Part shown: positions 1 through 24,867 of the stretch, one piece after another | Numbering within the stretch: position 1 is the first letter of the stretch | Layout: each line of letters starts with the position of its first letter | From: Cryomorphaceae bacterium | Lineage (GTDB): Bacteria > Bacteroidota > Bacteroidia > Flavobacteriales_D > Cryomorphaceae | DNA: 32,717 bases | Assembly (NCBI GenBank): GCA_003565555.1 | Contig: PXBH01000069.1 | Location: 1-32,717 of the forward strand | Direction of reading: 5' to 3' | The notes under the pieces: generated by a model | Seen by the model: the letters and a program-made list of their open reading frames with translations, nothing else | Database searches by the model: none | What the model was told of the DNA's origin: nothing | Translations under genes and position numbers: made by a program

Positions 1-742
1 CACCCGCCACAGTGACATAGCCGGGAGTGATGACGAGCGCGGTGGATTCATCGATCCCCGCGGCAGCCGGATATTCCGTATCGGCGAGGGCGCTGATCAA
101 TCGATTGTAGCGGCTGCGCACTACAAAATGTTGATCTATGATCAGACTGTCCGTCAATCCGAGACCACGCGCATATACCCCGTTTCCGTGTGTCAACCGG
201 CTGTATGTGGACTCGTAAAGCAGCTCTTCCCGCTGATCCCCCGTGATCATTACGCCGCTCATCAACGCAGCCCCCGCACTCGTTCCGCCCACCGTGGCTC
301 CCCGGAAATACGCGTCTCTGATCGCTCCGCTCACGTCGGGGTGCACATCGCGCAGAAAACGGTTCTGATCGCCTCCGGTAATGAAAATCAGCTTTGCCGC
401 ACTTACCGAATCGATCAGCGCTTGCCGCCCGTCGGCATTTTTAACACGAATCACGGGGAGGTCGGTATGCGCTGCCAATTCTTCGCTGATGTAGCGGAAA
501 GAGGTGTCGGGTTCAGCACTCGATTGGGCGAAAACCAAAGCATATCCCTCATCCGTCCCGGCCAAATCGGTGAAGGCTTTCATCAGGGTCGGCGTGCGCT
601 TGCCTCCGCCTATGATGAAAAGATTACCTTCCGGTGCCGGATGCGCGATGGCAGGCACCGTGGCGGTTTCCGCTTCGGGAGCGGGCTCCGTGCAGCTCAG
701 CCACATAAGGGCGAGGAAAGTGAAAATTGCGGTGCTTCTCAT
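1..742 (-). CDS. Cyanophycinase-like peptidase S51 lipoprotein, 3' end cut by window edge
   Basis: Serine peptidase of family S51, most like cyanophycinase, which cuts cyanophycin (poly-Asp with beta-linked Arg) into beta-Asp-Arg dipeptides. 247 residues are visible and the C-terminus lies outside the window. The N-terminus is a lipoprotein signal with lipobox WLSC (Cys17) followed by Glu-rich residues, so the protein is probably membrane anchored, possibly on the cell surface. Visible family motifs: ITGGDQ (121-126), the nucleophile elbow GGTSAGAA (Ser155), IDQHF (His205) and GIDES (Glu232). The His-to-Glu spacing of 27 equals that in Synechocystis CphB as I recall it (H174/E201). Arg209, Arg211 and Arg214 sit where the CphB substrate-pocket arginines fall. 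The ATG overlaps the SusD stop by one base (TGATG), so the gene is the third of a SusC-SusD operon. An alternative is another S51 peptidase such as aspartyl dipeptidase E, but the DQH and Arg cluster favours cyanophycinase. Confidence 0.85.
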   Translation of the reverse strand, partial: MRSTAIFTFLALMWLSCTEPAPEAETATVPAIAHPAPEGNLFIIGGGKRTPTLMKAFTDLAGTDEGYALVFAQSSAEPDTSFRYISEELAAHTDLPVIRVKNADGRQALIDSVSAAKLIFITGGDQNRFLRDVHPDVSGAIRDAYFRGATVGGTSAGAALMSGVMITGDQREELLYESTYSRLTHGNGVYARGLGLTDSLIIDQHFVVRSRYNRLISALADTEYPAAAGIDESTALVITPGYVTVAG

Positions 743-2109
743 CAGTCTTGATCCCACCAAAAGCGGGTTTGCATGTTGGGAGCGGGTTGCGGAAAATTGT
801 TGTTGCGCAATCGCTCAGATTGCGGGTAGATCAGCCGGCGGGGAATCTCGCCGTTGGGATTCGCAGAGGTAGGGCCGTTGGGGTTCGGCGTAAGCTCGGG
901 GTAGCCGGTTCTCCTGAAATCTGTCCATGGCTCAATGGTGGTAAACATGGCGATGTACTTCTGGGTGAGGAGGGTATTGAGGTTTTCGCTTTCAGAACCG
1001 TCCAGCCGCACATGGGAATCAAGATACGCATCCGCCTCGGCACTTTCGATGGCTCCGTCGGAGATTTCAGCCATAGAGGTCAGCACTGCACCGCGAAGTA
1101 CATCTTCGGCCCCTGCGGGGTCGCCGGTTCGGAGCAGGGCTTCAGCACGGATAAATTCTTGTTCCGTATAGGATATCAACCGCACCGGAGCAGCAGCTCC
1201 TGCAAAATAATCTCCCGGCCTCCGGTTTCCTCCCGAGAAAGGGATTGTGCGGAAAATTGAGGATTGGCGCGGGTCGTTCAAATCACTCAGCAGGTCTCTG
1301 AATGACTGGCTCACAAAGGCGAGTGGCGTAATATTGTAAAAACCGCCGATGGGGTTCGTATCGTCTCCCTGCCCGAGGTAAGGATAGGCCAAATCATCTC
1401 CCGGCGACTGAAACCGCATGCCGTTCAGCGCTTCCAAAGCTTCCGCCGGGGCATTGGCATTGCGTTTCAGGGTGCGCATGATGTACCGGGCACGCAATAC
1501 ATTGGCCGCAACCTTCCAACGATTCAGGTCACCGCCGTACATCAAGTCATCCGCCCCGGGTGAGAATGCGCTGTTCTCCTGTTCCAAATCGCTCACTGCA
1601 CGATCGAGCAAGGCAAAGACGGCCGCGTAAATTTCCTCTTGGGGGTCGTACACAGGATGGGGAAATTCCGACCCGCGCAGCGCCTGACTGTAAGGAACAT
1701 CTCCCCAGATATCGGTACACATCCCAATGCCTTGAGCCATAAGAATGCGCGCGATGCCGGCGTAATGCGGTGATTCCTCCGATGCCCGGTCAATAATGAT
1801 CCTGAGATTGAGCAATGCTCCCGTGTACAAATCGCTCCAGGCATTGCCGACGAAAAGTTCATCGGGCTGATAATTTTGGATCAACAACTCCTGACCCTCA
1901 TCACCTGTCAACTGATTTCCGAATATACCCGTGTAGCGATAAATCCGACCTCCCTGCACATCCGCGAGCTGCTTCTGTGAAGGGGGAAGCAAGGTACTCA
2001 GGGGCGCGTCAGACGGCACATTGGGGTTCTCATTGATCTCCTCGAGGTTGCATCCCAAAAGCGAGGAAGCAGCAATTAAAAATACCGATATGTTTCTCAT
2101 GGCGATCAT
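742..2109 (-). CDS. SusD/RagB-like outer-membrane nutrient-binding lipoprotein
   Basis: Surface lipoprotein that forms the lid and ligand-binding partner of a SusC TonB-dependent transporter. 455 residues. The N-terminus has a lipoprotein signal ending in SSLLGC (Cys20) followed by acidic residues, then the ENPNVPSDAP segment typical of the shorter SusD-like_2 type (PF12771). Its length fits that type rather than the longer glycan-binding SusD proteins. The start lies one base after the SusC stop. A second in-frame ATG at 2100, giving MRNISVF, is an equally good start. The stop overlaps the ATG of the S51 lipoprotein, so the three are almost certainly co-transcribed. The ligand cannot be read from sequence. 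The downstream cyanophycinase-like gene suggests peptides or polyamide fragments rather than glycans (inference). Confidence 0.93.
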   Translation of the reverse strand: MIAMRNISVFLIAASSLLGCNLEEINENPNVPSDAPLSTLLPPSQKQLADVQGGRIYRYTGIFGNQLTGDEGQELLIQNYQPDELFVGNAWSDLYTGALLNLRIIIDRASEESPHYAGIARILMAQGIGMCTDIWGDVPYSQALRGSEFPHPVYDPQEEIYAAVFALLDRAVSDLEQENSAFSPGADDLMYGGDLNRWKVAANVLRARYIMRTLKRNANAPAEALEALNGMRFQSPGDDLAYPYLGQGDDTNPIGGFYNITPLAFVSQSFRDLLSDLNDPRQSSIFRTIPFSGGNRRPGDYFAGAAAPVRLISYTEQEFIRAEALLRTGDPAGAEDVLRGAVLTSMAEISDGAIESAEADAYLDSHVRLDGSESENLNTLLTQKYIAMFTTIEPWTDFRRTGYPELTPNPNGPTSANPNGEIPRRLIYPQSERLRNNNFPQPAPNMQTRFWWDQD

Positions 2110-2110
2110 C

Positions 2111-5100
2111 TTAAAAGGTTACTGACACGTTGAACCCGTAGCTCTTTGTATTCGGATTGTTAAAATAGTCGCGCCCGAATGCATTGGTTGCCCCGCCCAA
2201 TGATGTTTCGGGATCAATACCCGTGTAGTTGGTGATTAAAAACAGATTGCGCGCCGTGAATGCAAACGAAACAGCAGCCACGCCGATTTTTTTGCAGGTT
2301 GTGGGTGGCAGCGCATAACTCAGGCTGATGTCGCGCATGCGAAACCAGTTTACGGTTTCGATATTGTCCTCCGTCACTCCGGTGAGTCCGTAGCGCGAAT
2401 AGAAGTTCTCGTCCATCCGAATTTCTTGCGTGTTGATCTCGTCTGTGATGACCAACTCTCCCTCCTCGATTCTCGTGACCACTCCGTCCCAAACGACGGT
2501 TTCATCCCTTGAAGCCGTTTCTTCAGCTGTTCCGAGGCGACGCATTACTGCGCGTGTACCGTTCCACATATCACCGCCCACACGGATATCGAGGAGGAAG
2601 CTCAAGGTCCAGTTTTTCATTCGAAACCTGTTGCGCCAACCCATCAGAAAATCCGGGTTGGGATCACCGACCACGCCGTTCTCTGAATCCACGATGGGAT
2701 AGCCCTGTTCGTTTACCAAAACCCGGCCCGCTTCGTCCCGAGCCCACCGCGACCCGAAGATGACGCCGTACTGCTGTCCTTCCACCACCCGTGACTGAGT
2801 ACTGGCCACGCCTACACTCGGCAATGCGATATCGTTGAGCTCATCGGTGAGGCTGATCACCTCGCTGCGCGGCCGGGTGATGTTCAGGCTTGTAGTCCAA
2901 GAGAGCTTCTCCGGGCTGCGCCGGCTAAACGGTATCACGTCGTATTCTACCAAGGCTTCCCAGCCCCAATTTCTGATTTCACCGATGTTTGTGATAAAGG
3001 TGGCGAAGCCCGTGCTGTTGGCGATGGGGATTTCGACAATTTGATCCGTAGATCGGTTGTCGTAATAGGTGATATCCGCGCGCACACGGTTGTTTCGCGA
3101 ACGCAGGTCTACACCCACCTCCACAGAATTGTTAAACTCCGGCGTGAGCGTATTGCTCCCGATCAGCGTATTGGGGGCATAAGAGAGTTGCCCTTGCGTA
3201 GATCCGCTGCTCACGAAATAATTCGTGGTGAGGTAATTCGCAAAGGCCCCGTTTCCTGTGACCGCATAGCTCGACCTGAACTTCCCGTACTCGATCGGCC
3301 CGAAGTCAGCCAATTCGGTAAAAACAAATCCGAAACTTGCCGACGGGTAGAAGAAGGAATTGTTCTGCGGAGGCAGGTTACTGATCCAATCCTGCCTTCC
3401 GGTAAAGGTGAGGTAATAGGTGCGTTTGTAATCAAAGGAGAGATCTCCGAAGGCCCCGACAAGACGAGATTGATCAATGCTGTCATCCGCTTCCACATTC
3501 ACCGAATTAATGTTTGAAATATCGTAAAATCCGTCAATGACAAATCCGAAACCATCCGCAAAAAGCGTGTTTCGATTGAAGGTCTGGTAGGCATGGCCTG
3601 CAATGAAGGTCATATTGAAGTCTTCACTGAAGCTGTAATCGGCCGTCAGGATAAGGTCATTGGTGACGTTGAACTGACTGATGCTCTGATTGAATATGGC
3701 CCCTCCGCGATCGGCCCACTCATTGGAGCGGCGGTCCCAGTAGGACACCCGCTCTTCAGAATAGGTGTCGACTCCTGCACGCTCGGTGATGCTTAACCAG
3801 TCAAAGGGCTTCCAGATGAATTCCGTGAATCCGATGAAGCGGCCGAGGGTTTCCTCGTTCCTGTTTCGATTTACCGACCAATACGGATTGTCGTAGGCAG
3901 CGTGGTAGGTACGTTGGGATCCGTTCGGAAATGACCATGCCGTTTCATCATTGACCGGATCGTCCGATCCGTTGGTCAGATCAAAGGAAGACGGCGCCCG
4001 CATCAACCCGAGCATTACGCCGGAGAGGTTGCTCCCGCGCTGCGGACGGTCTGCGTTGCTGCGCACATAATTTGCACTCGCTTTTACCGTCAGGTTGTGG
4101 CGAAGCTCGGTATTTCCCGTAAGGCGAATGCTGGAGCGGTTAAACGAACTTGTGGGAATAACACCCGATTGCCGCAGGTCACTCAGCGAAAGGTAGAAGC
4201 CTGACTTTTGGTTGCCTCCCGTGATGCTGAGGTTGTTGTTTACGGTCACCCCGGTTTGAAAAAAATCGGAGACATTATCGAAGGGTGCGGCCGGCCCTAA
4301 ATTGGGATCAAAGGGCACCAATAGGCCGCCCGGACTGTAGGACATGGTGTCCATCCTCGGTCCCCAAGTGAGGTTGCTGCCCTCCACAAATTGACCGCCC
4401 GTGCCCTGCCCCCATGTACGCTGCTTCTTCGGGAGGCGGTTTACCCGATCAAAGGTGGTGGTGTTAGAAAAGGTGACTTCGCTTCTGCCTTCCTTTCCCT
4501 GTTTGGTATTGATGATCACCGCACCGTTGGCGGCGCGAACGCCGTAAAGCGCGGAAGCAGCCCCGCCTTTCAGCACTGTCATGCTTTCAATATCGTCCGG
4601 ATTGATGTCGAGCGCCCGATTGGCCTGATCGGTAAAATTCGATCCCCGGTAGGAATTGTCGATCGGAATTCCGTCCACCACAAAAAGAGGGTCGTTGGTA
4701 CCGTTGATCGAAGTATTTCCGCGTATGCGTATGGATGAGGAAGCGCCCGGCGCACCCGAAGAAGAAGTGACCTGTACACCGGCCACTTTGGCGTTGAGGC
4801 TGTTTACCACATTGACCTCGCGCGACTCTCTGATCTCATCTCCGTCCACCTCACTTACACTGTAGCCCACCTTACGTTTGTCCTTTTCAATACCGATAGC
4901 GGTGATGACCACCTCCTCCAGTAATTTGTTGTCGGGTTGCAGTGCAATGTTGATCTCATTTCGACCGGAGATCTCAACAGTCTCCCTCCGATAACTTAAG
5001 AATGAAAACCTGATACTCCCCTCGGCAAACTGTTCATCGCTCAGGCGCAGCAGGTACGCGCCGGTCATCCCGGTAGAAGTTCCGGTAGTGGTGCCCTTCA

Positions 5101-5236
5101 GGACTACAGATACTCCGGGCAGGGGCTCACCCGTTTCCGCATCAGTCACGGTACCCTTCACCTCATTTTGCGCTGAGGTATTTTCAGAAAAAACAAGAAA
5201 AACTGCACATGCAAGGACTGCTGTAACCTTATTCAT
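2111..5236 (-). CDS. SusC/RagA-family TonB-linked outer-membrane transporter
   Basis: TonB-dependent importer of the SusC family, 1041 residues, the usual length. A signal peptide ends near ENTSAQ (about residue 22). Then come a carboxypeptidase-like regulatory domain (about 26-100, with VKGTVTDAETGEPLPGVSV), a TonB-box-like stretch (LEEVVITAIGIEK), the plug with the SusC hallmarks IRIRGNTSINGTNDPLFVVD and SALYGVRAANGAVIINTKQG, and a beta-barrel ending in an aromatic strand (GFNVSVTF). First gene of a leftward operon with SusD and the S51 lipoprotein. A TATTTTTG box lies about 75 nt upstream. No dedicated regulator (hybrid two-component system or sigma/anti-sigma pair) lies beside it. The partner enzyme suggests import of oligopeptides, perhaps beta-Asp-Arg (inference). 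Confidence 0.96.
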   Translation of the reverse strand: MNKVTAVLACAVFLVFSENTSAQNEVKGTVTDAETGEPLPGVSVVLKGTTTGTSTGMTGAYLLRLSDEQFAEGSIRFSFLSYRRETVEISGRNEINIALQPDNKLLEEVVITAIGIEKDKRKVGYSVSEVDGDEIRESREVNVVNSLNAKVAGVQVTSSSGAPGASSSIRIRGNTSINGTNDPLFVVDGIPIDNSYRGSNFTDQANRALDINPDDIESMTVLKGGAASALYGVRAANGAVIINTKQGKEGRSEVTFSNTTTFDRVNRLPKKQRTWGQGTGGQFVEGSNLTWGPRMDTMSYSPGGLLVPFDPNLGPAAPFDNVSDFFQTGVTVNNNLSITGGNQKSGFYLSLSDLRQSGVIPTSSFNRSSIRLTGNTELRHNLTVKASANYVRSNADRPQRGSNLSGVMLGLMRAPSSFDLTNGSDDPVNDETAWSFPNGSQRTYHAAYDNPYWSVNRNRNEETLGRFIGFTEFIWKPFDWLSITERAGVDTYSEERVSYWDRRSNEWADRGGAIFNQSISQFNVTNDLILTADYSFSEDFNMTFIAGHAYQTFNRNTLFADGFGFVIDGFYDISNINSVNVEADDSIDQSRLVGAFGDLSFDYKRTYYLTFTGRQDWISNLPPQNNSFFYPSASFGFVFTELADFGPIEYGKFRSSYAVTGNGAFANYLTTNYFVSSGSTQGQLSYAPNTLIGSNTLTPEFNNSVEVGVDLRSRNNRVRADITYYDNRSTDQIVEIPIANSTGFATFITNIGEIRNWGWEALVEYDVIPFSRRSPEKLSWTTSLNITRPRSEVISLTDELNDIALPSVGVASTQSRVVEGQQYGVIFGSRWARDEAGRVLVNEQGYPIVDSENGVVGDPNPDFLMGWRNRFRMKNWTLSFLLDIRVGGDMWNGTRAVMRRLGTAEETASRDETVVWDGVVTRIEEGELVITDEINTQEIRMDENFYSRYGLTGVTEDNIETVNWFRMRDISLSYALPPTTCKKIGVAAVSFAFTARNLFLITNYTGIDPETSLGGATNAFGRDYFNNPNTKSYGFNVSVTF

Positions 5237-5663
5237 AACCTGTAAAATTGATTGGAGAGAAGAGGGTGCCTTTCGGCAAAAAAGGGGTATCAGATTAACC
5301 CCTAGCAGTCAAAAATAGGCTGTAAATTGCGCAAAGACACAGCCTTGGTGCGGTAATGCGTGATATGTAGCAAAGGTTTGCGCATGGCCTTTCGATCGCC
5401 AATATTAATTTTTTCTCACAAAAAAACCAAGCGAATGAAGGTAATTTGAACTTTTTTCGTCCGGAGGATGGGTGTGATGAAAATTTCTCTATTTTTGGAG
5501 TGATGTTCTTTACGACACATACCCCCTTTAAGCCGGTTCACCTCTTGAACCTGCAACCCATTTTCGACTGCTAGTCGACACTTAGCGCCGTTCCCCCTTT
5601 GCGGAGCGCCCCGCCTCCTTTTAGTTTTTCTTTTTTCTTTTCCAACCTTTTAATTCGTTTATC
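5237..5663. other. 427-bp divergent intergenic region between SusC operon and T9SS gene
   Basis: No credible ORF. It holds regulatory signals for both directions. Leftward boxes are at 5310-5317 (TATTTTTG on the minus strand) and, as a weaker option, 5371-5378 (AACCTTTG on the minus strand, with TTG 21 nt further upstream at 5400-5402). A rightward TATTTTTG lies at 5490-5497 without a clear -33 TTG. Two small perfect inverted repeats follow at 5535-5551 (GGTTCA/TGAACC) and 5564-5578 (TCGACT/AGTCGA). A pyrimidine-rich stretch (5620-5660) leads into the rightward ATG. Confidence 0.6.
5310..5317 (-). promoter_or_regulatory. Candidate -7 box for the SusC operon
   Basis: The minus strand reads TATTTTTG, an exact match to the Bacteroidota TAnnTTTG box, about 75 nt upstream of the SusC ATG. 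The nearest upstream TTG leaves a spacer of only 14 nt, shorter than the usual 17-23, so this is a moderate candidate. Confidence 0.4.
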
Positions 5664-6575
5664 ATGCGTAAAATTTACCTTTTTGCGGCAGCCGCAACAT
5701 TTGCGCTCTCTGCCGAAGCACAAACCGAAGTCTACTTCGACGACTTCGAAAGCAACAGCCTCGAAGGCTACACACTCTACAATCTGGACGGTCTGGTTCC
5801 CGACGATCCCGGTTTGGCCACGATGGCTGACAGCGCTTGGACCATTCGATTTATTCAGGCACAAGGCTGGCCCCACGGAAGGTCTGCATTCTCTGTATCT
5901 TGGTATGAAAATGATGAAGGGCCTTCCGACGACTGGCTGGTGACTCCCGCCATCAATATCGAGGGCGAAGCCGTGCTCACTTGGGATGCGATGGCCATTA
6001 CTTCCAGCGGTAATTTTCGCGACCGGTACATGGTATTCATCAGTCCTTCACCCGACATTGATGTCATTGCCGACGAGGCCGTCATGGTCTTCGATACGGG
6101 CGCCATCGGTGAGGAAACAGATCCCACTCCGCGCGAAGTCGATTTGGCCGCCGAAGGGTTCGAGAACCAAACCATCTACATTTGCTTCAGAAACAATACG
6201 CAGGGATATGACCCCTCCCTTCCTACGGGCAACGGGAACGGAGGCAACGAGCTTGTCATAGACAACATTCGTGTGACGGACAACAGTGAGCCCCTCTCCG
6301 TAAGCGATACGGAGGTGTTCGGAAATGCAGGCATTCGCCCCAACCCGGTGGCGGGAAGCGAAGCCGAAATCAGCTTCAGTCTGGAGCAGCCCGAACAGGT
6401 ATTCATTGACATTACAGACATTTCCGGAAAGGTGATTTCCTCACAAAACCGCGGCATCATGGCCTCAGGCAGCCACATTGTGCGGTTCAACAGAAACGGT
6501 ACGGCCGCGGGTATCTACCTCGTGCGGTTGCGCACTCCCCGGGGCGCCGAGGTCATGAAGGTGGTCTTCGAATAA
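5664..6575 (+). CDS. Secreted protein with choice-of-anchor J/cleaved-adhesin domain and T9SS type A sorting domain
   Basis: 303 residues. The signal peptide (MRKIYLFAAAATFALSAEAQ) is followed by a jelly-roll domain of the cleaved-adhesin/choice-of-anchor J type: it begins YFDDFES and has the characteristic SVSWYENDEGPSDDWLVTPA segment near residues 77-96. The last ~80 residues form a T9SS type A sorting domain (IRPNPV, then VFIDITDISGKVI, then AAGIYLVRLRT). The protein should therefore cross the outer membrane through T9SS and be attached or released at the surface. No catalytic motif is visible, so it may bind a substrate or a partner protein. It lies divergent from the SusC operon and just upstream of the isoaspartyl peptidase, so a role in the same surface process is possible but unproven. 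Confidence 0.9.
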   Translation: MRKIYLFAAAATFALSAEAQTEVYFDDFESNSLEGYTLYNLDGLVPDDPGLATMADSAWTIRFIQAQGWPHGRSAFSVSWYENDEGPSDDWLVTPAINIEGEAVLTWDAMAITSSGNFRDRYMVFISPSPDIDVIADEAVMVFDTGAIGEETDPTPREVDLAAEGFENQTIYICFRNNTQGYDPSLPTGNGNGGNELVIDNIRVTDNSEPLSVSDTEVFGNAGIRPNPVAGSEAEISFSLEQPEQVFIDITDISGKVISSQNRGIMASGSHIVRFNRNGTAAGIYLVRLRTPRGAEVMKVVFE

Positions 6576-6583
6576 TTTTCAAA

Positions 6584-6591
6584 TACTTTTG
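6584..6591 (+). promoter_or_regulatory. Candidate -7 box for the isoaspartyl peptidase
   Basis: TACTTTTG matches TAnnTTTG exactly and lies 8 nt after the T9SS gene stop. No good TTG is seen 17-23 nt upstream. Transcription would start near 6598, at the base of the hairpin 6597-6624. Confidence 0.5.
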
Positions 6592-6596
6592 CAACC

Positions 6597-6624
6597 GGCA
6601 GCGCATCCCCGAGGATGCGCTGCC
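6597..6624 (+). other. Perfect 12-bp stem-loop at the predicted 5' end of the isoaspartyl peptidase mRNA
   Basis: GGCAGCGCATCC and GGATGCGCTGCC pair perfectly around the loop CCGA. No U-run follows, so it is a poor intrinsic terminator for the upstream gene. Its position right after the -7 box suggests a 5'-terminal stem-loop in the downstream mRNA. An in-frame ATG at 6615 lies inside the stem, which argues for the start at 6645 instead. Confidence 0.6.
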
Positions 6625-6644
6625 TCTATATCCGTAAGGATTCT

Positions 6645-7580
6645 ATGAAAGATACATACGCTCTGGTCATCCACGGAGGAGCGGGTACCATTACCCGCAA
6701 GTCGATGAGTTCCGAAAAAGAAGCGGCCTACCGTACCGCATTAAATACGGCACTCACCGCGGGTGAGCAGCTCCTGAAAAAGGGCGCGAAGGCCATCGAC
6801 GCCGCTGAGGCCGCGGTTCGTGTGATGGAAGATTCAGACCTTTTCAATGCGGGTAAAGGCGCTGTATTCACGCATGATGGAACCCATGAGATGGATGCCT
6901 CCGTCATGGACGGAAACGGCCGCCGCGCGGGAGCAGTGGCGGGCATTACTTCCGTAAAAAATCCCGTCTGTCTGGCCCGTGCCGTCATGGAGCAGAGCGA
7001 GCACGTATTCCTGATCGGAAAAGGAGCGGAAGAATACGCCCGCACCCTGGACCTTGAGCACGCTGCTCCCGAATATTTCTCTACAGAATTCAGAAAGGCG
7101 CAGCTGATGAGAATTCGGGATACCGGACGCACGCAGCTGGACCACACCGAAGAAGACCATAAGAAATACGGCACCGTAGGTGCCGTAGCTCTGGACACCT
7201 CGGGAAATCTCGCTGCAGCCACATCTACGGGGGGCATTACCAACAAGCGCTTCGGACGCGTGGGCGACACTGCCGTGATCGGATCCGGAACCTATGCAGA
7301 AAACGGCGTATGCGCCGTAAGCAGCACGGGCTGGGGCGAATACTACCTGCGGGCGGTAGCTGCATATGACATCGCCGCATTGATGAAATACGGAGGCCGC
7401 AGCCTGGATGAGGCCTGTGCGGAGGTTCTGAACGGGCACATCGCGGAGATGGGCGGCGACGGCGGATTCATTGCCGTGGACAGCCTCGGATGCATCGCCA
7501 TGCCGTTCAATACAGAAGGAATGTACCGCGGCTATGCGAAAAGCACGGGAGAGCGGGAGATTGCCGTATACCGGAAATAA
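6645..7580 (+). CDS. Isoaspartyl peptidase / type-2 (plant-type) L-asparaginase
   Basis: N-terminal nucleophile hydrolase that splits beta-aspartyl (isoaspartyl) dipeptides and can hydrolyse asparagine. 311 residues from the ATG at 6645, which is preceded by TAAGGA and gives the family-typical opening YALVIHGGAG. An in-frame ATG at 6615 would add ten residues but lies in a hairpin. The autoprocessing site and nucleophile are visible in KKYGTVGAVA (Thr177, comparable to Thr179 of E. coli IaaA). The substrate loop follows (STGGITNKRFGRVGDTAVIG), then GTYAENG and the GGDGGFIAVD tail. There is no signal peptide, so it acts in the cytoplasm. Beta-Asp-Arg, the product of cyanophycinase, is a known substrate class for this family. 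With the SusCD/S51 operon next door it could complete a cyanophycin-use pathway (inference). Confidence 0.95.
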   Translation: MKDTYALVIHGGAGTITRKSMSSEKEAAYRTALNTALTAGEQLLKKGAKAIDAAEAAVRVMEDSDLFNAGKGAVFTHDGTHEMDASVMDGNGRRAGAVAGITSVKNPVCLARAVMEQSEHVFLIGKGAEEYARTLDLEHAAPEYFSTEFRKAQLMRIRDTGRTQLDHTEEDHKKYGTVGAVALDTSGNLAAATSTGGITNKRFGRVGDTAVIGSGTYAENGVCAVSSTGWGEYYLRAVAAYDIAALMKYGGRSLDEACAEVLNGHIAEMGGDGGFIAVDSLGCIAMPFNTEGMYRGYAKSTGEREIAVYRK

Positions 7581-10900: not shown

Positions 10901-13900
10901 ATGGTTAAAGTTTTCTACGCCGCACTGACGGCCTGGCTCGTCACCGGCGGTTTTGCACAGCTTTGGGGGCAAGGCGTATTTCCCGAGTACGGAATCAAAT
11001 CCAAAGACGCGGTGTACACCCTTTACAAAGACGGAATTGTGCATTTCCCGGACGGCAGCGTCGAGACTGCTGATATTTTGACCTATAAAGGTAAAATCCG
11101 GGATGTAGGCCCGGCAGAAAATTTCGATTACGATGCCGACACCCGAACGGTCTCACTGAGCGGGCTGCACGTGTACCCCTCTTTTATCGATATGAAGAGC
11201 AGCTACGGGCTGAAACCATATGAGAAGCCGGAACGCAGCGAAAAGCCGCAATACGAAAGGCAGAAAAACAGAGCGACTTACCCCTACGAAAGCGTCCGCC
11301 CGGAAGCCAATGCCGCAGACCGCTTCGAACCGGACGAGGAGGCCGCCGAGAAACTCAGGGCCCTCGGAGTAGGCGCAGTACTCACTGTGCTCCCCGACGG
11401 CATTGCCCGAGGCCGCTCCGCCCTCGTGCGCACCGGCGCCGGAAGGGCGAATAAACAAACTTTGGAAACCCGTGCCGCCGCTCATTTCTCTTTTGAAAAA
11501 GGAACCTCCGCCCAGGCCTATCCCAATAGCCTGATGGGAGCGGTGGCCCTCTTCAGGCAGGCCTTTCTCGATGCCGAATGGTATGCGCGCGCCGAAAATG
11601 CCGATACAGATTACAGCCTCGAAGCGCTGGCCGCACAACGCGACGCACTAAAAATATTCGAAGGGCGGGACAAATTTGATCTTTACCGATTGGGGCGCGT
11701 CGCCGAAGAGCTCAAACTCGACTTTTTGGCCTATGAGCCGGGGCACGCCTACGAATCCGTTGCGCACATCTCGCCGCGCATCAGGGGGTTGATCATCCCG
11801 CTGAAAATGCCCTTGCCCTTTGACACCGATGATCCCGACATGCTGCGCTTTGTGGATCAGAGCGATATGCTCCACTGGGAGCGGGCTCCTTTTAATGCAA
11901 GGGTGCTGCACAACGCCGGGATCCCCTTCGCCATGACTACGGATGGCATAAAGAGCAGCGATGAACTCCTGAAAAATTTGCGCAAGCTTCACGAGGCGGG
12001 AACCCCCGAGGTCGTAATGCTCCGTGCATTGACAGCGGCACCCGCTGAATTTTTAGGCAAATCAGACCAAATCGGAAACATCGCCAAAGGCGCCGATGTG
12101 CAGTTCTTTACCGCATCGGGCAACATATTCACAGACCCCGAAGCCGAACTGCGTACGCACTACATCGGTGAGAGGGAGTATACGATCAAAGAAACACCCG
12201 AAGCAGCCCTCAACGGCATCTATGATCTCAACGTGGACGGGACGTATATGGAGCTTCGCATCAAAGGAAAACACCCCAAATACAAAGCCCGGGTGCGCCA
12301 CACGGAGCAACCCGACACCGCTTACCGCGAGGCCGCCGTTTCCCTCTTAGGCCGTGAAATTTCGCTTTCTTTCGAAGCTGCCGATGCGACCGGCCGCTAC
12401 CGGCTTTCCGCCAGTGCGCGGAGCAACAACCGGATTTGGGACGGTACGGGCGCGGATTCGAAAGGAAAAGCGGTGAAATGGAGCGCCATTTACAAGGCCG
12501 AGAAGCCCGACAAAAGTGCTTTGGATACCGTGATTAAAGTGGTCCCGCCCATCCCTGCCTTGCGGTATCCGCTTGCCGCTTACGGGTATGACACACTGCC
12601 CGAAGCGGAAACCCTCTGGATTACCAATGCCGTGGTATGGACCAACGAAGATGCGGGCATTATTAAAAACGGGGAGATCCTGATCCGTGACGGGAAGATA
12701 ATGGCGGTAGGCAAAAACCTGATCCCCGCCGAGCACCTGCCGAAAGGCGCTGCGAAAAACCTGACGGAGTACAATGCCGGCGGAAAGCACGTCACCCCGG
12801 GAATCATAGACGAGCACAGCCACATTGCCATCAGCCGCGGGGTGAATGAGGGCACGGAAGCCTCCACGGCAGAAGTGCGCATTGAGGATGCCTTGAATCC
12901 TGACGACATTAACATCTACCGTCAGTTGGCGGGCGGAGTGACCGTTTCGCAACTCCTGCACGGATCTGCCAACCCGATCGGCGGGCAGTCCGCGATAGTA
13001 AAGTTGCGTCGGGGTGAAGGGTACGAGAAAATGATTTTTGCGGAAGCGCCCGGCTTCATCAAATTTGCGCTGGGCGAAAATGTAAAGCAAACCAATTGGG
13101 GCGACCGCTACACCGAGCGCTATCCGCAGACCCGAATGGGCGTGGAGCAGTTTTTTTACGACTACTTCTACCGGGCCGAGGAATACGACGAGCGGCGCCG
13201 ACTGCACGAAGCTTCAACCGAAGGGCGCCGCAAGCTCTTTCACAAAAAAGACGACGAAAAGCCTGCATTCCGGCGCGATCTCGAGCTTGAAGCCCTGGCC
13301 GAAATCCTTCGCGGCGATCGCCACATCACCTGCCACTCATACGTGCAAAGCGAAATCAATATGCTGATGCACGTTGCCGACAGTATGGGATTTAAGGTGA
13401 ACACTTTCACCCATATTCTGGAGGGATATAAGCTGGCCGATCGCATGCGGCGCCACGGAGCTGCGGGCAGCACCTTCAGCGACTGGTGGGCCTACAAATA
13501 TGAAGTGATCGATGCGATCCCCTACAATGCGGCTGCCATGCACAATGCAGGGGTGCTGACGGGCATCAACTCAGACGATGCGGAAATGGGAAGGCGGCTC
13601 AATCAGGAAGCTGCCAAAGCCGTGAAATACGGCGGCATGAGCGAGGAAGACGCCCTGAAAACCGTGACCTTAAACCCTGCAAAGATGCTCCGGATCGACC
13701 ACCGTACGGGGAGTCTGAAAAAGGGAAAAGACGCGGACATCGTGATTTGGAGCGGGCATCCGCTTTCGGTGTACTCGCGGGCGGAAATCACCTTTACAGA
13801 CGGAAGGCGCTATTTTGACCGTGCGCAAAGCATCGCCCTGTCCGAACGTGATAAAGCCGACCGGGCAAGAATCGCCGACCTGATGCGCAGGGAAAAAGAA

Positions 13901-13975
13901 AACGGAAGCCCCGCCAAAAAGCCCGAACGAAAAATGGAAAGATACTACCACTGTGACGACATTGAAGAACAATAA
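10901..13975 (+). CDS. Exported two-module amidohydrolase, C-terminal module with intact metal site
   Basis: 1024 residues with a signal peptide (MVKVFYAALTAWLVTGGFAQ), so periplasmic or surface. Two amidohydrolase-superfamily modules are seen. The first (about 40-410) has the family frame (LHVYPSFIDMKSSYG, then AAPAEFLG) but MKS where the first His pair should be. After a beta-rich linker (about 425-550), the second (about 570-975) carries HVTPGIIDEHSHIA (His639 and His641), HITCHSY (His near 812), FTHILEG (His near 838) and TGINSDDAE (Asp near 892), then the closing LNPAKMLRIDHRTGSLKKGK. It resembles imidazolonepropionase-like, TolB-free exported amidohydrolases common in Bacteroidota. The substrate is unknown. 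The downstream amidohydrolase overlaps its last 23 bp. The pair may form a complex. Confidence 0.9.
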   Translation: MVKVFYAALTAWLVTGGFAQLWGQGVFPEYGIKSKDAVYTLYKDGIVHFPDGSVETADILTYKGKIRDVGPAENFDYDADTRTVSLSGLHVYPSFIDMKSSYGLKPYEKPERSEKPQYERQKNRATYPYESVRPEANAADRFEPDEEAAEKLRALGVGAVLTVLPDGIARGRSALVRTGAGRANKQTLETRAAAHFSFEKGTSAQAYPNSLMGAVALFRQAFLDAEWYARAENADTDYSLEALAAQRDALKIFEGRDKFDLYRLGRVAEELKLDFLAYEPGHAYESVAHISPRIRGLIIPLKMPLPFDTDDPDMLRFVDQSDMLHWERAPFNARVLHNAGIPFAMTTDGIKSSDELLKNLRKLHEAGTPEVVMLRALTAAPAEFLGKSDQIGNIAKGADVQFFTASGNIFTDPEAELRTHYIGEREYTIKETPEAALNGIYDLNVDGTYMELRIKGKHPKYKARVRHTEQPDTAYREAAVSLLGREISLSFEAADATGRYRLSASARSNNRIWDGTGADSKGKAVKWSAIYKAEKPDKSALDTVIKVVPPIPALRYPLAAYGYDTLPEAETLWITNAVVWTNEDAGIIKNGEILIRDGKIMAVGKNLIPAEHLPKGAAKNLTEYNAGGKHVTPGIIDEHSHIAISRGVNEGTEASTAEVRIEDALNPDDINIYRQLAGGVTVSQLLHGSANPIGGQSAIVKLRRGEGYEKMIFAEAPGFIKFALGENVKQTNWGDRYTERYPQTRMGVEQFFYDYFYRAEEYDERRRLHEASTEGRRKLFHKKDDEKPAFRRDLELEALAEILRGDRHITCHSYVQSEINMLMHVADSMGFKVNTFTHILEGYKLADRMRRHGAAGSTFSDWWAYKYEVIDAIPYNAAAMHNAGVLTGINSDDAEMGRRLNQEAAKAVKYGGMSEEDALKTVTLNPAKMLRIDHRTGSLKKGKDADIVIWSGHPLSVYSRAEITFTDGRRYFDRAQSIALSERDKADRARIADLMRREKENGSPAKKPERKMERYYHCDDIEEQ

Positions 13976-15257
13976 GGCCCTCCTCCCCATCATGATCGCA
14001 ATCACCGCCCTCGCGTCAGTTTCGGCAGTGGGGCAAGACAGTGCAGCGGTACTCTTCACGAATTGCATTTTGCATACGGGAACCGGCACCACCTACAGTG
14101 AGGGCGCCATCGGGATGAAAAACGGAAAGATCACCTATGCAGGACGCGCCGTAGCCGCTCCCAAAACGGGCTTCACTAAAACCACGGACCTGAAGGGAAA
14201 ACACGTGTATCCCGGACTGATTGCCATGAATACCACGCTGGGGCTGACGGAAATTTTTGCCGTAAGGGCCACCAACGACTACAAAGAGGCCGGACGCATG
14301 AACCCCAATGTGCGCGCCTTGAGCGCCTACAATGCAGAAAGCGAGATAACCGCCACCGTGAAGGCAAACGGGGTGCTCTTCGCTCAAATATGTCCGCGCG
14401 GAGGCGTAATGAGCGGTACGAGTTCCGTTGTTGTACTCGAGGGAAACAATTGGGAGGACGCCGCATACCGGGCAGACGAGGGCATCCACCTGAACTGGCC
14501 GCGGATGTACAAATATTCGGGAGATGAAGAAGACCCGGAAGCCTATATCCCCGATGAAGATTACGGGAAAAACATGCAGGAGCTCCGCACTTTCTTTGAG
14601 AAGGCAAAGGCCTATGCAAAGCGGAGTTTCCCTCTTGAGCGGGATTTGCGCTTCGAGGCATTGCGGGGTGTTTTTGAAGGTGAAAAACGCCTTTACGTGC
14701 ATGCAGATTTTATCAAAGCACTGCGGGAAATCACGCTGTTCAAAAAAGATTTTGAGATTGAAAAACTTACCGTCGCGGGAGGTGAAGACGCTTGGATGGC
14801 GGCCGATCTGCTGCGCGAAAACGGTGTAAGCGTGCTGGTAAAACGGGTAAACAGTCTGCCGCGCTTTGCGGAAGATGACATTGACGGGTCTTTTACCTTG
14901 CCTGCAAAGCTGGCGGCCGCAGGCGTTGACTTCTGCTTCCAAACGGGCGGCAGTATGGAACCGATGCAAAACAGGAATATCGCATTCAACGCAGGTACTG
15001 CCGTGGGCTACGGACTGGACCGCGAAGCAGCCATCAAAGCGCTGACCCTCACTCCGGCCGAGGTGTTGGGAATCGACAGCCGTACCGGCAGCCTGGAACC
15101 GGGCAAAGAAGCCAACTTTATCATCACCTCCGGAGACCTCCTCGACATGAGGCAAAGCCATGTAGAAGCGATGTACTTCAGAGGGCAGTCACTCCCGCTG
15201 AAAACCCGACAGGAAGAACTGTTCGAAAAGTACACCGCCCCTGCAAATGTCCGTTGA
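13953..15257 (+). CDS. Exported amidohydrolase-like protein lacking the HxH motif
   Basis: 434 residues from a GTG at 13953, which gives a good signal peptide (basic N-region, then LPIMIAITALASVSAVGQ). An internal ATG at 13992 would remove the basic region. The fold signature is clear: LKGKHVYPGLIAMNTTLGLT where active members read D-x-H-x-H, and the terminal LTPAEVLGIDSRTGSLEPGK. The metal-binding His pair is replaced by MNT and no later His/Asp ligand set is obvious, so it is probably a non-catalytic partner. It overlaps the preceding two-module amidohydrolase by 23 bp in another frame, which points to coupled translation and joint function. The inactive N-terminal module of that neighbour has the same defect. 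Confidence 0.88.
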   Translation: MTTLKNNKALLPIMIAITALASVSAVGQDSAAVLFTNCILHTGTGTTYSEGAIGMKNGKITYAGRAVAAPKTGFTKTTDLKGKHVYPGLIAMNTTLGLTEIFAVRATNDYKEAGRMNPNVRALSAYNAESEITATVKANGVLFAQICPRGGVMSGTSSVVVLEGNNWEDAAYRADEGIHLNWPRMYKYSGDEEDPEAYIPDEDYGKNMQELRTFFEKAKAYAKRSFPLERDLRFEALRGVFEGEKRLYVHADFIKALREITLFKKDFEIEKLTVAGGEDAWMAADLLRENGVSVLVKRVNSLPRFAEDDIDGSFTLPAKLAAAGVDFCFQTGGSMEPMQNRNIAFNAGTAVGYGLDREAAIKALTLTPAEVLGIDSRTGSLEPGKEANFIITSGDLLDMRQSHVEAMYFRGQSLPLKTRQEELFEKYTAPANVR

Positions 15258-15303: not shown

Positions 15304-15798
15304 ATGGCAAAGAAGGGACAAACGGAAAAATGGGTGCTGATGACCGAACTCAACGGCGAACCCCTGCTGCACCACTTCAAACTCTCGAATATGGGCCATG
15401 TGGTCCGCATGAAAAAAGGCACGGGACCGGAAGAAATCTTCGAGCCGAAAGAAATAGGCGGTTATAAATACATCAGCTTTACCACCAGGAACGGCACCCG
15501 CGAAACGATCTACGTGCACCGATTGGTAGCGGAATTTTTTGTGAAAAATGACAATGAGGACGCCACCTATGTCATCCACAAGGACTACGACCGCAGCAAC
15601 AACAAGCACGATAACCTCAGCTGGGTGACGCAGGAAGTCCTCTACAAACACCGGGCGCAAAAGGCCGGAAGAATTCCCGGCCGAACGAACAGCCGCAAAA
15701 AGCTGATCAGGCCCGAACGCACTGCAAATGAAGCTGCAGCCGCAGAACGCGCAAAGCGGGAGCATCATCTCGCAGAATTCGCGGGCATCCGCTACTGA
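15304..15798 (+). CDS. NUMOD4/HNH-type small protein
   Basis: 164 residues. The N-terminal half (about 10-60) fits a NUMOD4-like DNA-binding module (KLSNMGHVVRMKKG, GYKYISF). The middle fits an HNH_3-type core: YVHRLVAEFFVKN, VIHKDYDRSNNKHDNLSWVT. The His and Asn of the core are present. The C-terminal ~40 residues are basic and Ala/Arg/Glu rich. Such proteins occur as homing-type endonucleases, but here there is no intron, intein or phage context, and the gene stands alone, 46 bp after the amidohydrolase pair. A domesticated DNA-binding or nicking role is possible. Its stop codon overlaps the convergent ligase gene by 7 bp. Confidence 0.75.
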   Translation: MAKKGQTEKWVLMTELNGEPLLHHFKLSNMGHVVRMKKGTGPEEIFEPKEIGGYKYISFTTRNGTRETIYVHRLVAEFFVKNDNEDATYVIHKDYDRSNNKHDNLSWVTQEVLYKHRAQKAGRIPGRTNSRKKLIRPERTANEAAAAERAKREHHLAEFAGIRY

Positions 15799-17381
15799 AA
15801 CTCTTCTAAAAGTTTCCGGACATTTTCTAAGGTGTCTGCGTCCTCGGGCTTTTTGTCGGTGCGCTGTCTCAACATTCTGGGAAAGCGCAATGCGATCCCG
15901 CTTTTGTGACGGGTGCTGGGAGCGATGCCTTCGAAGCCGATTTCGAAGACCAATTCCGGCTTCACGCTGCGCACGGGCCCGAAGCGCTCGATGGTGTGCT
16001 GCTTTACGAAGCGGTCGGTTTCCTGCATCTCGCGGTCCGTGAGTCCGCTGTACGCCTTCGCCACCGGTACCAGTTCCGCCCCGTCCCACACGGCAAAAGT
16101 GTAATCAGAAAAAAGATTGGCCCGTCGCCCGTGTCCGCGCATCGCATAAATCAGCACTGCATCGATGGTCATGGGATCGGTTTTCCACTTCCACCACTCC
16201 CCCTTTTTCCGACCGATCTTGTAGGTGCCGCTCCTTCTTTTGATCATGAGCCCTTCTGCCATGGCAGCCCTGCTCTCCGCCCGGAGTCGGCCGGCCTCAT
16301 CCGGAGTGGCGGGCCTCAACAGGGGGGAAATTTTCAATGCATCGGTTTCGGCTTCCGCAATGAGCGCCTCCAGTCTGCGCCGCCGTTCATCAAGCGGCAT
16401 ATCCCGCAGGTCTTTGCCCGATTCTTCGAGAAGGTCATATGCCATCAGAACCGCAGGAGAGTCGTCGAGAATCTTTTTCCCCGGCTTCTTTCGGCCAATC
16501 CTTTTTTGAAGGTGATTGAAGGTAAGCGGGCTCCCGTCTTTGTAAGCCAAAATCTCCCCGTCGATCACAGCATCGCGCGGAAGGTTCAGGGCCGGAACGG
16601 CAATGTCCGGAAAGCGCTCCGTGATGAGCTCCTCTCCCCGACTCCAGAGAAATACTGCCCCCTTGCGGAAAATTAGCTGGCCCCGGATGCCGTCCCACTT
16701 GTACTCAAATTGCCACTCCTCCACCGGTCCGAGCTGCTCCGTACCTCCCTCTGCGGGATAGGCCAGATAAAAGGGATAGGGGCGTGAAAGATCCTCGTCG
16801 GGGTCGGGATCGGCAAGGAGAGATTGAAAATTTGCCGTGCGCGGATCCCAATTTCCCATCAGGCGATGTGCCACGGCATTCTCATCTTCACCGAGGTGAC
16901 GGGCCAAGGCGCGGGTCATGAGTTTTGTGCTCACCCCGATTCGAAATCCGCCCGTCATTAGCTTGTTAAAAACAAAGCGCTCCGCCTTGTTCGCTCCCCG
17001 CCAAATGTGGCGAATGGCGGCTTCTTTTTCTTCGTCAGATTTCTTTCGTAAGCCTTCCAAAGTCTCCATCCTTTCCGTGAGGCTCGCGTCGTCTTCGCGC
17101 TCGGGCGGCGGAAGCACGAGGGCTACGGTTTCCGCCAAATCGCCGGCCACGTAATAACTCTCCTCGAAGAGCCACAGCGGGATGCCCGCTTCCGAGGCCG
17201 CCCACTCACGCAGTAGTGCGGTTTTTACGGGGCGCTTGGGCCTGTTGCCCGAAAGCAGGGCCACACACCACAATTTATCCGCGTCCGAGGCCTCTTCCAA
17301 ATACCTGACCAGCGCATCGGTCTTCTCATTGGTTCGGGTGGTGGCGTCAATCGCCGTAATGAGGGCGGCAAATTTCTTCAT
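15792..17381 (-). CDS. ATP-dependent DNA ligase of the Lhr/Exo/MPE-associated type
   Basis: 529 residues, the usual length of the bacterial ligase family found with Lhr helicase, MBL exonuclease and PdeM (TIGR04120-like). The N-terminal ~200 residues are the helical DNA-binding domain. The nucleotidyl-transfer motifs follow: motif I EYKWDGIRGQ (adenylated Lys228), VIDGEILAY (motif III), EGLMIKR (motif IV) and WWKWKTDPMTIDAV (motif V). An OB-fold domain completes it, including FEIGFEGIAPS and the end motif SGIALRFPR. It seals nicks in DNA by the ATP-dependent route. The start ATG overlaps the stop of the upstream exonuclease (ATGA), so the two are co-translated. The helicase and phosphoesterase of the set are 8-9 kb away on the other strand. 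Confidence 0.95.
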   Translation of the reverse strand: MKKFAALITAIDATTRTNEKTDALVRYLEEASDADKLWCVALLSGNRPKRPVKTALLREWAASEAGIPLWLFEESYYVAGDLAETVALVLPPPEREDDASLTERMETLEGLRKKSDEEKEAAIRHIWRGANKAERFVFNKLMTGGFRIGVSTKLMTRALARHLGEDENAVAHRLMGNWDPRTANFQSLLADPDPDEDLSRPYPFYLAYPAEGGTEQLGPVEEWQFEYKWDGIRGQLIFRKGAVFLWSRGEELITERFPDIAVPALNLPRDAVIDGEILAYKDGSPLTFNHLQKRIGRKKPGKKILDDSPAVLMAYDLLEESGKDLRDMPLDERRRRLEALIAEAETDALKISPLLRPATPDEAGRLRAESRAAMAEGLMIKRRSGTYKIGRKKGEWWKWKTDPMTIDAVLIYAMRGHGRRANLFSDYTFAVWDGAELVPVAKAYSGLTDREMQETDRFVKQHTIERFGPVRSVKPELVFEIGFEGIAPSTRHKSGIALRFPRMLRQRTDKKPEDADTLENVRKLLEEFQ

Positions 17382-20405: not shown

Positions 20406-21296
20406 TCAATTGTTTAGGATGGTGATTGTTCGTTTTTCTTCGTCTATGCGGTAATCGAAACCCAAAGGCTTACACACTATGTCAAGCAGATCTTCCGTGC
20501 TTTGCGCTCCGGAAAACTCACCGGAATAGCGCGCGTTCGTTTCGAAACCGCAAATAATTTCGAACCCGATGTTGTCTGCGAGGGATTTGAATACCTCCTT
20601 TACGGGAACGTCGTTGAAAGAGTAATAGGGAAAGGACCAATATCCGATTTCCGCTGCGGGCATTTCGCTGATGTGCACATTTCTCGCATTTGCTGTAAGG
20701 AGCCCGCCGGGGGTGAGTTCAAACCGCTTGCCCGAGGGAACATTTACCGCAACACGCCCGGTCTTGCAGCCTACTTCCAGGGCCTCGTCGACATAGCGTA
20801 CATTGAAAGAAGTTCCCAGCACGCGCACATCTCCTCCTTCGGTGTAAACGGTAAAAGAAGATCCGCGGTTAACTTCGAAGAAGGTTTCTCCTGCGGCACG
20901 GACCTTTCTGTTGAGGAAGAAGGTATGGGCATTGAAGTCAATTTCAGCCCCTCGATTCAGCGAAACTTTTGATCCGTCGGGCAGATGTGTCACAATGATT
21001 TCGGCGGAGGCGTTGGTCAGGGTTGTTTTTCCCGAAAGGTAGAGACCCGCCAGTGCTCCGATCACCAGAATCGCCGCTGCTGCGGCATACCTGAGCACGG
21101 CTCGGGAGCGGGGTTCAGGCATCGCGATCACACGTCCCGTATTTATTCGCGCTCGGATCGCCCTCAGAGCATCATCTTGTGAGCGTTTGAAAGGAAGCCG
21201 GTCTTTTCTCAGGCAGGCACTGATTTTTTCTTCTGTACTTTTTTTCACCTCGTCCGTTTCTGTCGCGGTTACGGTGCATATACAGCCTGCTTTCAA
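20406..21296 (-). CDS. Second FecR-family anti-sigma protein (FecR + DUF4974)
   Basis: About 296 residues. A short cytoplasmic N-terminus is followed by one membrane helix (VLRYAAAAAILVIGALAGLY, about 67-86). A FecR domain (about 100-195; TFFEVNRGSSFTVYTEG, VRVLGTSFNVR) and a C-terminal DUF4974 domain (about 215-296; PYYSFNDVPVKEVFKSLADN) lie in the periplasm. The start is uncertain: the outermost start is a TTG at 21296, a GTG at 21248 gives VKKSTEEKISACL, and the nearest ATG (21279) is in another frame. It lies 73 bp downstream of the TonB receptor gene and after another FecR gene and one sigma gene, so this operon has two anti-sigma proteins for one visible sigma. It may sense the same receptor or regulate a sigma factor encoded elsewhere. 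Confidence 0.9.
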   Translation of the reverse strand: MKAGCICTVTATETDEVKKSTEEKISACLRKDRLPFKRSQDDALRAIRARINTGRVIAMPEPRSRAVLRYAAAAAILVIGALAGLYLSGKTTLTNASAEIIVTHLPDGSKVSLNRGAEIDFNAHTFFLNRKVRAAGETFFEVNRGSSFTVYTEGGDVRVLGTSFNVRYVDEALEVGCKTGRVAVNVPSGKRFELTPGGLLTANARNVHISEMPAAEIGYWSFPYYSFNDVPVKEVFKSLADNIGFEIICGFETNARYSGEFSGAQSTEDLLDIVCKPLGFDYRIDEEKRTITILNN

Positions 21297-21333
21297 AACA
21301 CCCTACCCCATCGAAAATTTTTTTTTCGGTTCA

Positions 21334-21367
21334 GCCTGCAAAGCCTCCCCCGAGGGCGAAAGCAGGC
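21334..21367 (-). other. Intergenic hairpin between the TonB receptor and second FecR
   Basis: GCCTGC and GCAGGC pair, with an inner CCTC/GAGG stem, in the 73-bp gap. Downstream on the minus strand is an A-run, not a U-run, so a processing or mRNA-stability element is likelier than a terminator. Confidence 0.4.
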
Positions 21368-21369
21368 AT

Positions 21370-24009: not shown

Positions 24010-24866
24010 CAGGGCATTAAGATAATGCTTTCATCGCTGAACCGGAGGGAGAGGCTAAACGTACGTGCCAAAATATCGAGACATTCATCGCGCGATTTTC
24101 CCGTAAGGTCACCGGAGTAGAGAAGTTCAGGGGCGACTTCCGAGACGATATGCGTATCAAAAACCTGCTCCAGCACACTGACCACGACACATAGCGGCAC
24201 TTCATCAAAATTGAGGTCAGACGGGGCGGGAAGGAAAGGCCCCTTGTGGGCAAATTCCACAGCGAACAGCGCCGCCACTCCCGCGTCAGCGCGCACGGCA
24301 GTGCCCGGCATTAATGCAGCAGAGGTATTGCCGCGGCGCACCTCCACCTTTCCCGAAAGGCAATGCACAAAAGTGCGCGAAGGCGCAGCCCAAACCGAAA
24401 ATGAGGTGCCCTTTACGGCCACCTCCGCTCCGTCGGTGACTACCTTAAACGGCCGGCCCGGCATCACCTCAAAAAAGGCCTCACCCGAAAGCCTCAACTG
24501 CCTGCTTACGGGCCAAAGCCAAGCGTTGAAGCTCAAATTTGCCCCGGGAGCCATTGTCACCGCGCTCCCTCCCGGGAGGGAGCGGCTCAGCACGGTTTCC
24601 GAAGCATTCTCGATACGCTCTTGTCCCGCAAACCACACGAAAAAAGGAAGGCCTGTGAGAAAGAGCAAAATTGCCGCAGCAAGCGGGGTGCTCAGCCGCC
24701 GCCGGAGGCGAATCACTTCCGCTGAAGGAGATTCAGGCCGGTGATTAATTCTCGAAAGTACAGCACGCTTCGCCCTTTCCTCCGCATCCTCGGCAAAGGG
24801 TGGCCGCCACAATTTCATGCGGGCATTCATCTTTTTCTCAAATTCGTCCTGTCCCGATGCTTTCAT
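24009..24866 (-). CDS. FecR-family anti-sigma protein
   Basis: 285 residues from the ATG at 24866, 1 nt after the sigma stop. An in-frame ATG at 24890 would overlap the sigma gene by 23 bp. The cytoplasmic N-terminal part (about 1-65) is basic. One membrane helix follows (LAAAILLFLTGLPFFVWFAG, about 63-82). Then come the FecR domain (about 90-200; EAFFEVMPGRPFKVVTDG, VAVKGTSFSVW) and a DUF4974-like C-terminus (LNFDEVPLCVVVSVLEQVFD). It should hold the upstream ECF sigma factor at the inner membrane and release it on a signal from the STN receptor encoded next. Its N-terminus aligns loosely with the second FecR of the operon (ERAKRAVLSRI versus DDALRAIRARI). Confidence 0.92.
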   Translation of the reverse strand: MKASGQDEFEKKMNARMKLWRPPFAEDAEERAKRAVLSRINHRPESPSAEVIRLRRRLSTPLAAAILLFLTGLPFFVWFAGQERIENASETVLSRSLPGGSAVTMAPGANLSFNAWLWPVSRQLRLSGEAFFEVMPGRPFKVVTDGAEVAVKGTSFSVWAAPSRTFVHCLSGKVEVRRGNTSAALMPGTAVRADAGVAALFAVEFAHKGPFLPAPSDLNFDEVPLCVVVSVLEQVFDTHIVSEVAPELLYSGDLTGKSRDECLDILARTFSLSLRFSDESIILMP

Positions 24867-24867
24867 G

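Follow-up and report, generated by a model that had tools for sequence, protein, structure and literature searches.

Can an outer-membrane importer of the SusC/SusD (SusCD) type serve the uptake of cyanophycin, the nitrogen-rich, cyanobacterial nitrogen-storage polymer that is set free when cyanobacteria lyse? The question is raised by the 32,717-nucleotide stretch of Cryomorphaceae DNA analysed here ("the window"), which is one contig (PXBH01000069.1; C65) of a 237-contig, 3.72 Mb genome that is 97% complete. The window opens in a minus-strand operon consisting of, in the order of transcription, (i) a SusC/RagA TonB-dependent transporter (2111–5236; TIGR04056 629 bits, cut-off 368; TIGR04057 55 bits), (ii) a SusD/RagB-type lipoprotein lid (742–2109; PF12771 216 bits, cut-off 27), and (iii) an exported, cyanophycinase-like S51 enzyme (S51a; 1–742). 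The S51a gene starts with the ATG at 742 and runs out of the contig at base 1 without reaching a stop codon, so that its 3' end is missing. The SusD stop codon overlaps the S51a start codon (gacTGATGAga). With overlapping minus-strand genes and profile matches above the cut-offs, the SusC-SusD-S51 operon proposed in the first-pass annotation stands, and a SusC-type TonB transporter adjoining a SusD lipoprotein is the arrangement of SusCD/RagAB importers.

On the other side of a divergent intergenic region (5237–5663), two genes lie on the plus strand: a T9SS-exported choice-of-anchor-J protein (5664–6575; NF038128 48 bits, TIGR04183 36 bits) and an IaaA-type isoaspartyl peptidase without a signal peptide (6615–7580, probable start 6645; PF01112 373 bits). 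From inspection of its sequence, the intergenic region presumably holds the promoters for both transcripts, whose co-regulation we infer; a scan of it for sigma-70-type promoters gave no match, a result that says little in Bacteroidota. The first-pass annotation had set a cytoplasmic isoaspartyl peptidase next to the operon. The enzyme is indeed present and predicted to be cytosolic; it nevertheless lies outside the SusCD operon, on the divergent strand and behind the choice-of-anchor-J gene, which the annotation did not mention.

Is S51a a cyanophycinase? The protein matches PF03575 (46 bits, cut-off 23.9), carries the motifs GGTSAGAA, IDQHFVVRSRYNR and GIDES, and has an N-terminal signal with a cysteine, Cys17, that is invariant across 10 aligned relatives. 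These features agree with the earlier description of a lipidated, cyanophycinase-like enzyme, and make S51a a probable lipoprotein (a lipobox count of 38 among 98 homologues was set aside; the pattern misses Bacteroidota-type lipoboxes). Eight residues are known to be critical in CphB of Synechocystis PCC 6803—Gln101, Ser132, Asp172, Gln173, His174, Arg178, Arg180 and Arg183 (PMC3235067)—to which the catalytic Glu201 was added by alignment. All nine catalytic and binding residues are found in S51a, and they are kept in 95–98 of 98 S51a homologues. An AlphaFold model of S51a (pLDDT 90.6) superposes on the cyanophycinase structure 7uqv with a TM-score of 0.74 (2.3 Å), and also fits the CphB structures 3en0 and 7uqw, the latter with bound substrate. 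PepE structures score lower (0.55–0.64), and a fold search of the PDB with the model returned cyanophycinases as the top nine matches, ahead of any PepE.

The comparison with PepE matters, as family S51 also includes PepE and MccG (PMC9239234). Conceivably, the locus scavenges peptides containing Asp or isoAsp: S51a would be an aspartyl peptidase of the PepE kind, acting after export, and SusCD would import ordinary oligopeptides in the manner of RagAB. The promiscuity of IaaA and IadA enzymes (PMC10206079) would suit such a locus, as would the score of S51a against the cyanophycinase equivalog model TIGR02069: 105 bits (200 of 250 positions covered) for the protein as truncated by the contig end, below the cut-off of 126.6. 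Two full-length relatives from the same family also fall below this value (L025, 117 bits; L026, 108 bits), while it is passed by other members with the operon (L041, 145 bits; L028, 130 bits) and by a Flammeovirga homologue (L091, 170 bits). We consider peptide scavenging improbable: the cyanophycin-pocket residues are all retained, the fold is nearest to that of cyanophycinases, and, for each of the homologues tested, PepE models give much lower scores than TIGR02069. Among characterized cyanophycinases, CphB is intracellular, unlike the exported S51a, while CphE of Pseudomonas is extracellular and, like S51a, exported; CphE shares the catalytic and binding residues, with Thr in place of Gln173 (PMC3235067). 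No SusCD partner has been described for either enzyme.

The missing end of S51a was located on another contig of this genome, C103. The last 110 bases of C103 encode ILTRPERTVDRNGKIGLKEMKINIYLQGDTFKIKP followed by a stop codon, which is the S51 C-terminus predicted from relatives, and this C-terminus overlaps the start of the following gene. From the alignment, we estimate the gap between the two contigs at about 13 bases. The gene that follows on C103 encodes a second S51 protein (S51b) with a T9SS sorting domain, and the next a DcuC/YfcC-family carrier, the best NCBIfam match of which is PRK11588 (putative basic amino acid antiporter YfcC; 360 of 500 bits, below the cut-off). S51b keeps the catalytic Ser, His and Glu; the full arginine set of CphB is not kept in most of its relatives, which lack the counterpart of Arg178, and the substrate of S51b is therefore less certain. 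Of the two enzymes, the T9SS-exported S51b is the clearer surface enzyme, whereas the S51a lipoprotein may sit on either face of the outer membrane. The first-pass annotation had seen no inner-membrane dipeptide transporter; a DcuC/YfcC-family carrier is encoded on the abutting contig.

How widely is this arrangement kept? The order SusC-SusD-S51a-S51b recurs in seven relatives from the same order, with the DcuC-type carrier next in three of the seven (the locus of one, L027, stops at a contig end); in gene lengths, S51a is followed by about 430 aa and then, in three of seven, about 460 aa. In three members of the order (L028, L041 and L042), IaaA lies away from S51a, which, like its divergent orientation in the window, counts against a joint role. 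Beyond the order, S51a homologues were collected from 80 database loci, 62 of which have more than 6 kb of upstream sequence. SusC and SusD are both near S51a in 41 of these 62, and in 21 they belong to one unbroken gene run; a rough chance expectation, derived from the 15–47 SusC genes per genome in three member genomes, is 10–20% within 10 kb. Other partners among the 80 loci are IaaA (23), S51b (23), ornithine aminotransferase (19; adjoining S51a in Flavobacterium and Flammeovirga loci) and the DcuC-type carrier (17). The linkage recurs both in order relatives and, via other SusCD lineages, across Bacteroidota. Some of the collected loci show further features: in Flavobacterium (L072, L073 and others), S51a is preceded by ornithine aminotransferase and an Lrp/AsnC regulator, and followed by a PF01804 penicillin-amidase-like protein, a DLH hydrolase and an M28 peptidase. 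One SusC-SusD-S51a contig comes from a Halorubrum-labelled MAG (L123), and is probably misbinned Bacteroidota.

The partner SusCs of S51a form at least three clades in a tree, with unlinked SusCs between them (two sequences labelled as background in this tree, L190 and L198, are actually linked), and the SusDs at S51a loci are of two Pfam types. Together, the clades and the two types indicate that SusCD joined an exported cyanophycinase repeatedly. In the Cryomorphaceae genome itself, the SusC of the window is the sole full-length SusC above the cut-off, besides one fragment at a contig end. A single further SusCD pair was found in the genome, on contig C45 (L217, 1–2477); its SusC is interrupted by the end of the contig, and its SusD belongs to another type.

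The IaaA-type enzyme bears on a further reading, in which the locus would be used for glycans or glycoproteins, with the Ntn hydrolase and the S51 peptidase trimming asparagine-linked or peptide material. Glycans are the usual SusCD cargo, and glycosylasparaginases belong to PF01112. The best PDB match of the window enzyme is, however, E. coli IaaA (2zak; 330 bits), rather than a glycosylasparaginase, and no glycoside hydrolase or other CAZyme is present among the annotated genes adjoining the locus; use for glycans is very unlikely. The enzyme retains the autocleavage Gly-Thr of Ntn hydrolases (beta-subunit chains align from residue 187, the Thr in YGTVGAVALD), and falls below the PRK10226 equivalog cut-off (364 versus 567). 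It is unexported, while the two other PF01112 proteins of the genome carry signal peptides. Its choice-of-anchor-J neighbour has counterparts in the equivalent position in L025, L027 and L044, and is a candidate surface protein for cyanophycin binding. In more distant genomes, anchor-J-like proteins (23 to 142 bits) adjoin S51a in L103, L106, L121 and L123.

Export of IaaA varies with the presence of the carrier. IaaA is unexported in all 11 carrier-bearing loci, and exported in 18 of 19 loci without a carrier (counting the lipoprotein signal of L036; 17 of 19 in a first count). Over loci, Fisher's test gives p = 1.4e-6. On the tree, however, export of IaaA arose only about twice, too few times for a comparison of independent pairs to be significant, and the pattern is suggestive only. 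From its pairing with unexported IaaA, the DcuC/YfcC-family carrier is predicted to import beta-aspartyl-arginine across the inner membrane. Tentatively, at somewhat below even probability, we propose a picture in which the dipeptide would be split in the periplasm or, where the carrier is present, in the cytosol, and in which exported cyanophycinases would have acquired a SusCD partner on at least three occasions.

Cyanophycinases also act on internal stores, and CphA-CphB-IaaA storage clusters exist in Bacteroidota; might the locus then turn over a cyanophycin store of the cell's own? A search of the genome for the synthetase, CphA, gave 111 bits for the best match (cut-off 850), in an assembly that is, as above, nearly complete, and both S51 proteins carry export signals. 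Turnover of an own store is contradicted by these results unless CphA lies in the 3% of the genome that the assembly lacks, and we give it the lowest probability of all the readings weighed here. Across genomes, CphA is above the cut-off in none of nine with the same SusCD operon (this one and eight relatives), and in 6 of 13 with S51a but without that operon, a modest contrast (one-sided Fisher test about 0.02, calculated by hand and ignoring kinship); G015, one of the six, has a different SusC near S51a. The S51 proteins that are linked to CphA in Bacteroidota form a separate group without signal peptides, while the window S51a belongs to the exported group. In the unexported group, TIGR02069 scores are 219–242 bits in the three proteins tested, and the genes adjoin others of about 880 aa and, mostly, also IaaA; three of these long genes were scored, and all are CphA (1140–1266 bits). 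A reading frame of 878 aa near S51a in Dyadobacter (L115) was considered as CphA and ruled out; its only match is a weak one to a TonB receptor. In the genome under study, then, SusCD and a DcuC-type carrier are linked to the putative cyanophycinase and CphA was not found. Outside the locus, the genome also encodes RocD (627 bits) and an enzyme of the arginase family.

The first-pass annotation regarded a SusCD system directed at a polyamide as notable. Such a direction is supported, and is less notable than stated, because a cyanophycin locus in Bacteroidetes, TonB-cyanophycinase neighbours and the peptide-importing RagAB have already been published. A "cyanophycin utilization locus", reported in 2017 from the cyanobacteria-scavenging Bacteroidetes strain L21-Spi-D4, is cited in PMC10206079, where such loci are defined by a cyanophycinase and an isoaspartyl dipeptidase within 5 kb. 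In the window, 5.9 kb (742 to 6615) separate S51a from IaaA, a distance that includes SusCD and one further gene. As described in PMC10206079 and PMC6243061, the locus of L21-Spi-D4 (Salinivirga cyanobacteriivorans) resembles ours in having cyanophycinases, an isoaspartyl dipeptidase, a transporter and two S51 types, one with a Por (T9SS) domain (PMC6243061). In those descriptions, the dipeptidase gene is iadA, whereas the window has iaaA. The L21-Spi-D4 transport complex is reportedly called homologous to polysaccharide utilisation loci in the Ben Hania 2017 abstract.

A cyanophycin-scavenging cluster is also cited for Flammeovirga pacifica WPAGA1 (PMC10206079). Its locus (L091) has the same parts—S51b, SusC, SusD, S51a (43% identical), IaaA (52%) and the DcuC carrier (48%)—and differs in lying all on one strand, in including RocD, and in having a PF07980-type SusD (cluster 1) and a SusC of another lineage. 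RagAB of Porphyromonas gingivalis is, like the SusCD of the window, a SusCD-type importer, and takes up peptides rather than glycans; its cargo is ordinary oligopeptides, and no linked cyanophycinase is reported for it (PMC11817032). In Citromicrobium JLT1363, which is not a member of the Bacteroidota, a TonB-dependent transporter lies beside a cyanophycinase, and cyanophycin was proposed from gene proximity in 2012 as its substrate; SusD does not feature in the part of PMC3400609 that deals with this pair. Against this background, our analysis suggests two new elements: (i) the repeated recruitment of SusCD, and (ii) the co-occurrence of the carrier and an unexported IaaA, which points to a possible importer of beta-Asp-Arg.

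The remainder of the window contains several other gene groups. Adjoining the locus are two tandem amidohydrolase-family proteins (10901–15257; 1024 and 434 aa) with weak matches to many amidohydrolase models, in the same order in L027. Further along are genes for a cisplatin-response-type ATP-dependent DNA ligase (15792–17381), an Lhr-type helicase (26552–29002) and a metallophosphoesterase (28999–29652), which look like a ligase-associated repair set. Between them (20406–25398) are two genes for FecR, one for a TonB-dependent receptor and, upstream, a small reading frame that may encode a sigma factor; together they make up a putative cell-surface signalling cluster of the iron type.

Taken together, the active-site residues, the fold, the conserved linkage, the lack of a CphA match above the cut-off and the downstream carrier support the scavenging interpretation of the first-pass annotation: the locus, spanning the window and C103, very probably serves the scavenging of external cyanophycin. 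In the proposed pathway, the T9SS-exported S51b and the S51a lipoprotein would cut external cyanophycin into oligomers and beta-Asp-Arg, and SusC/SusD would import the products across the outer membrane, driven by TonB. The DcuC/YfcC-family carrier would then take dipeptides across the inner membrane, and cytosolic IaaA would split them, yielding Asp and Arg, the latter of which may be passed on via the arginase-family enzyme and ornithine aminotransferase.

Surface enzymes, an outer-membrane importer, an inner-membrane carrier and a dipeptidase can thus all be placed in one putative pathway in this bacterium. The DcuC/YfcC-family carrier provides a named transporter whose substrate is directly testable. 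A conserved import pathway that is distinct from the CphA storage clusters of Bacteroidota would provide a gene signature for the consumers of cyanophycin.
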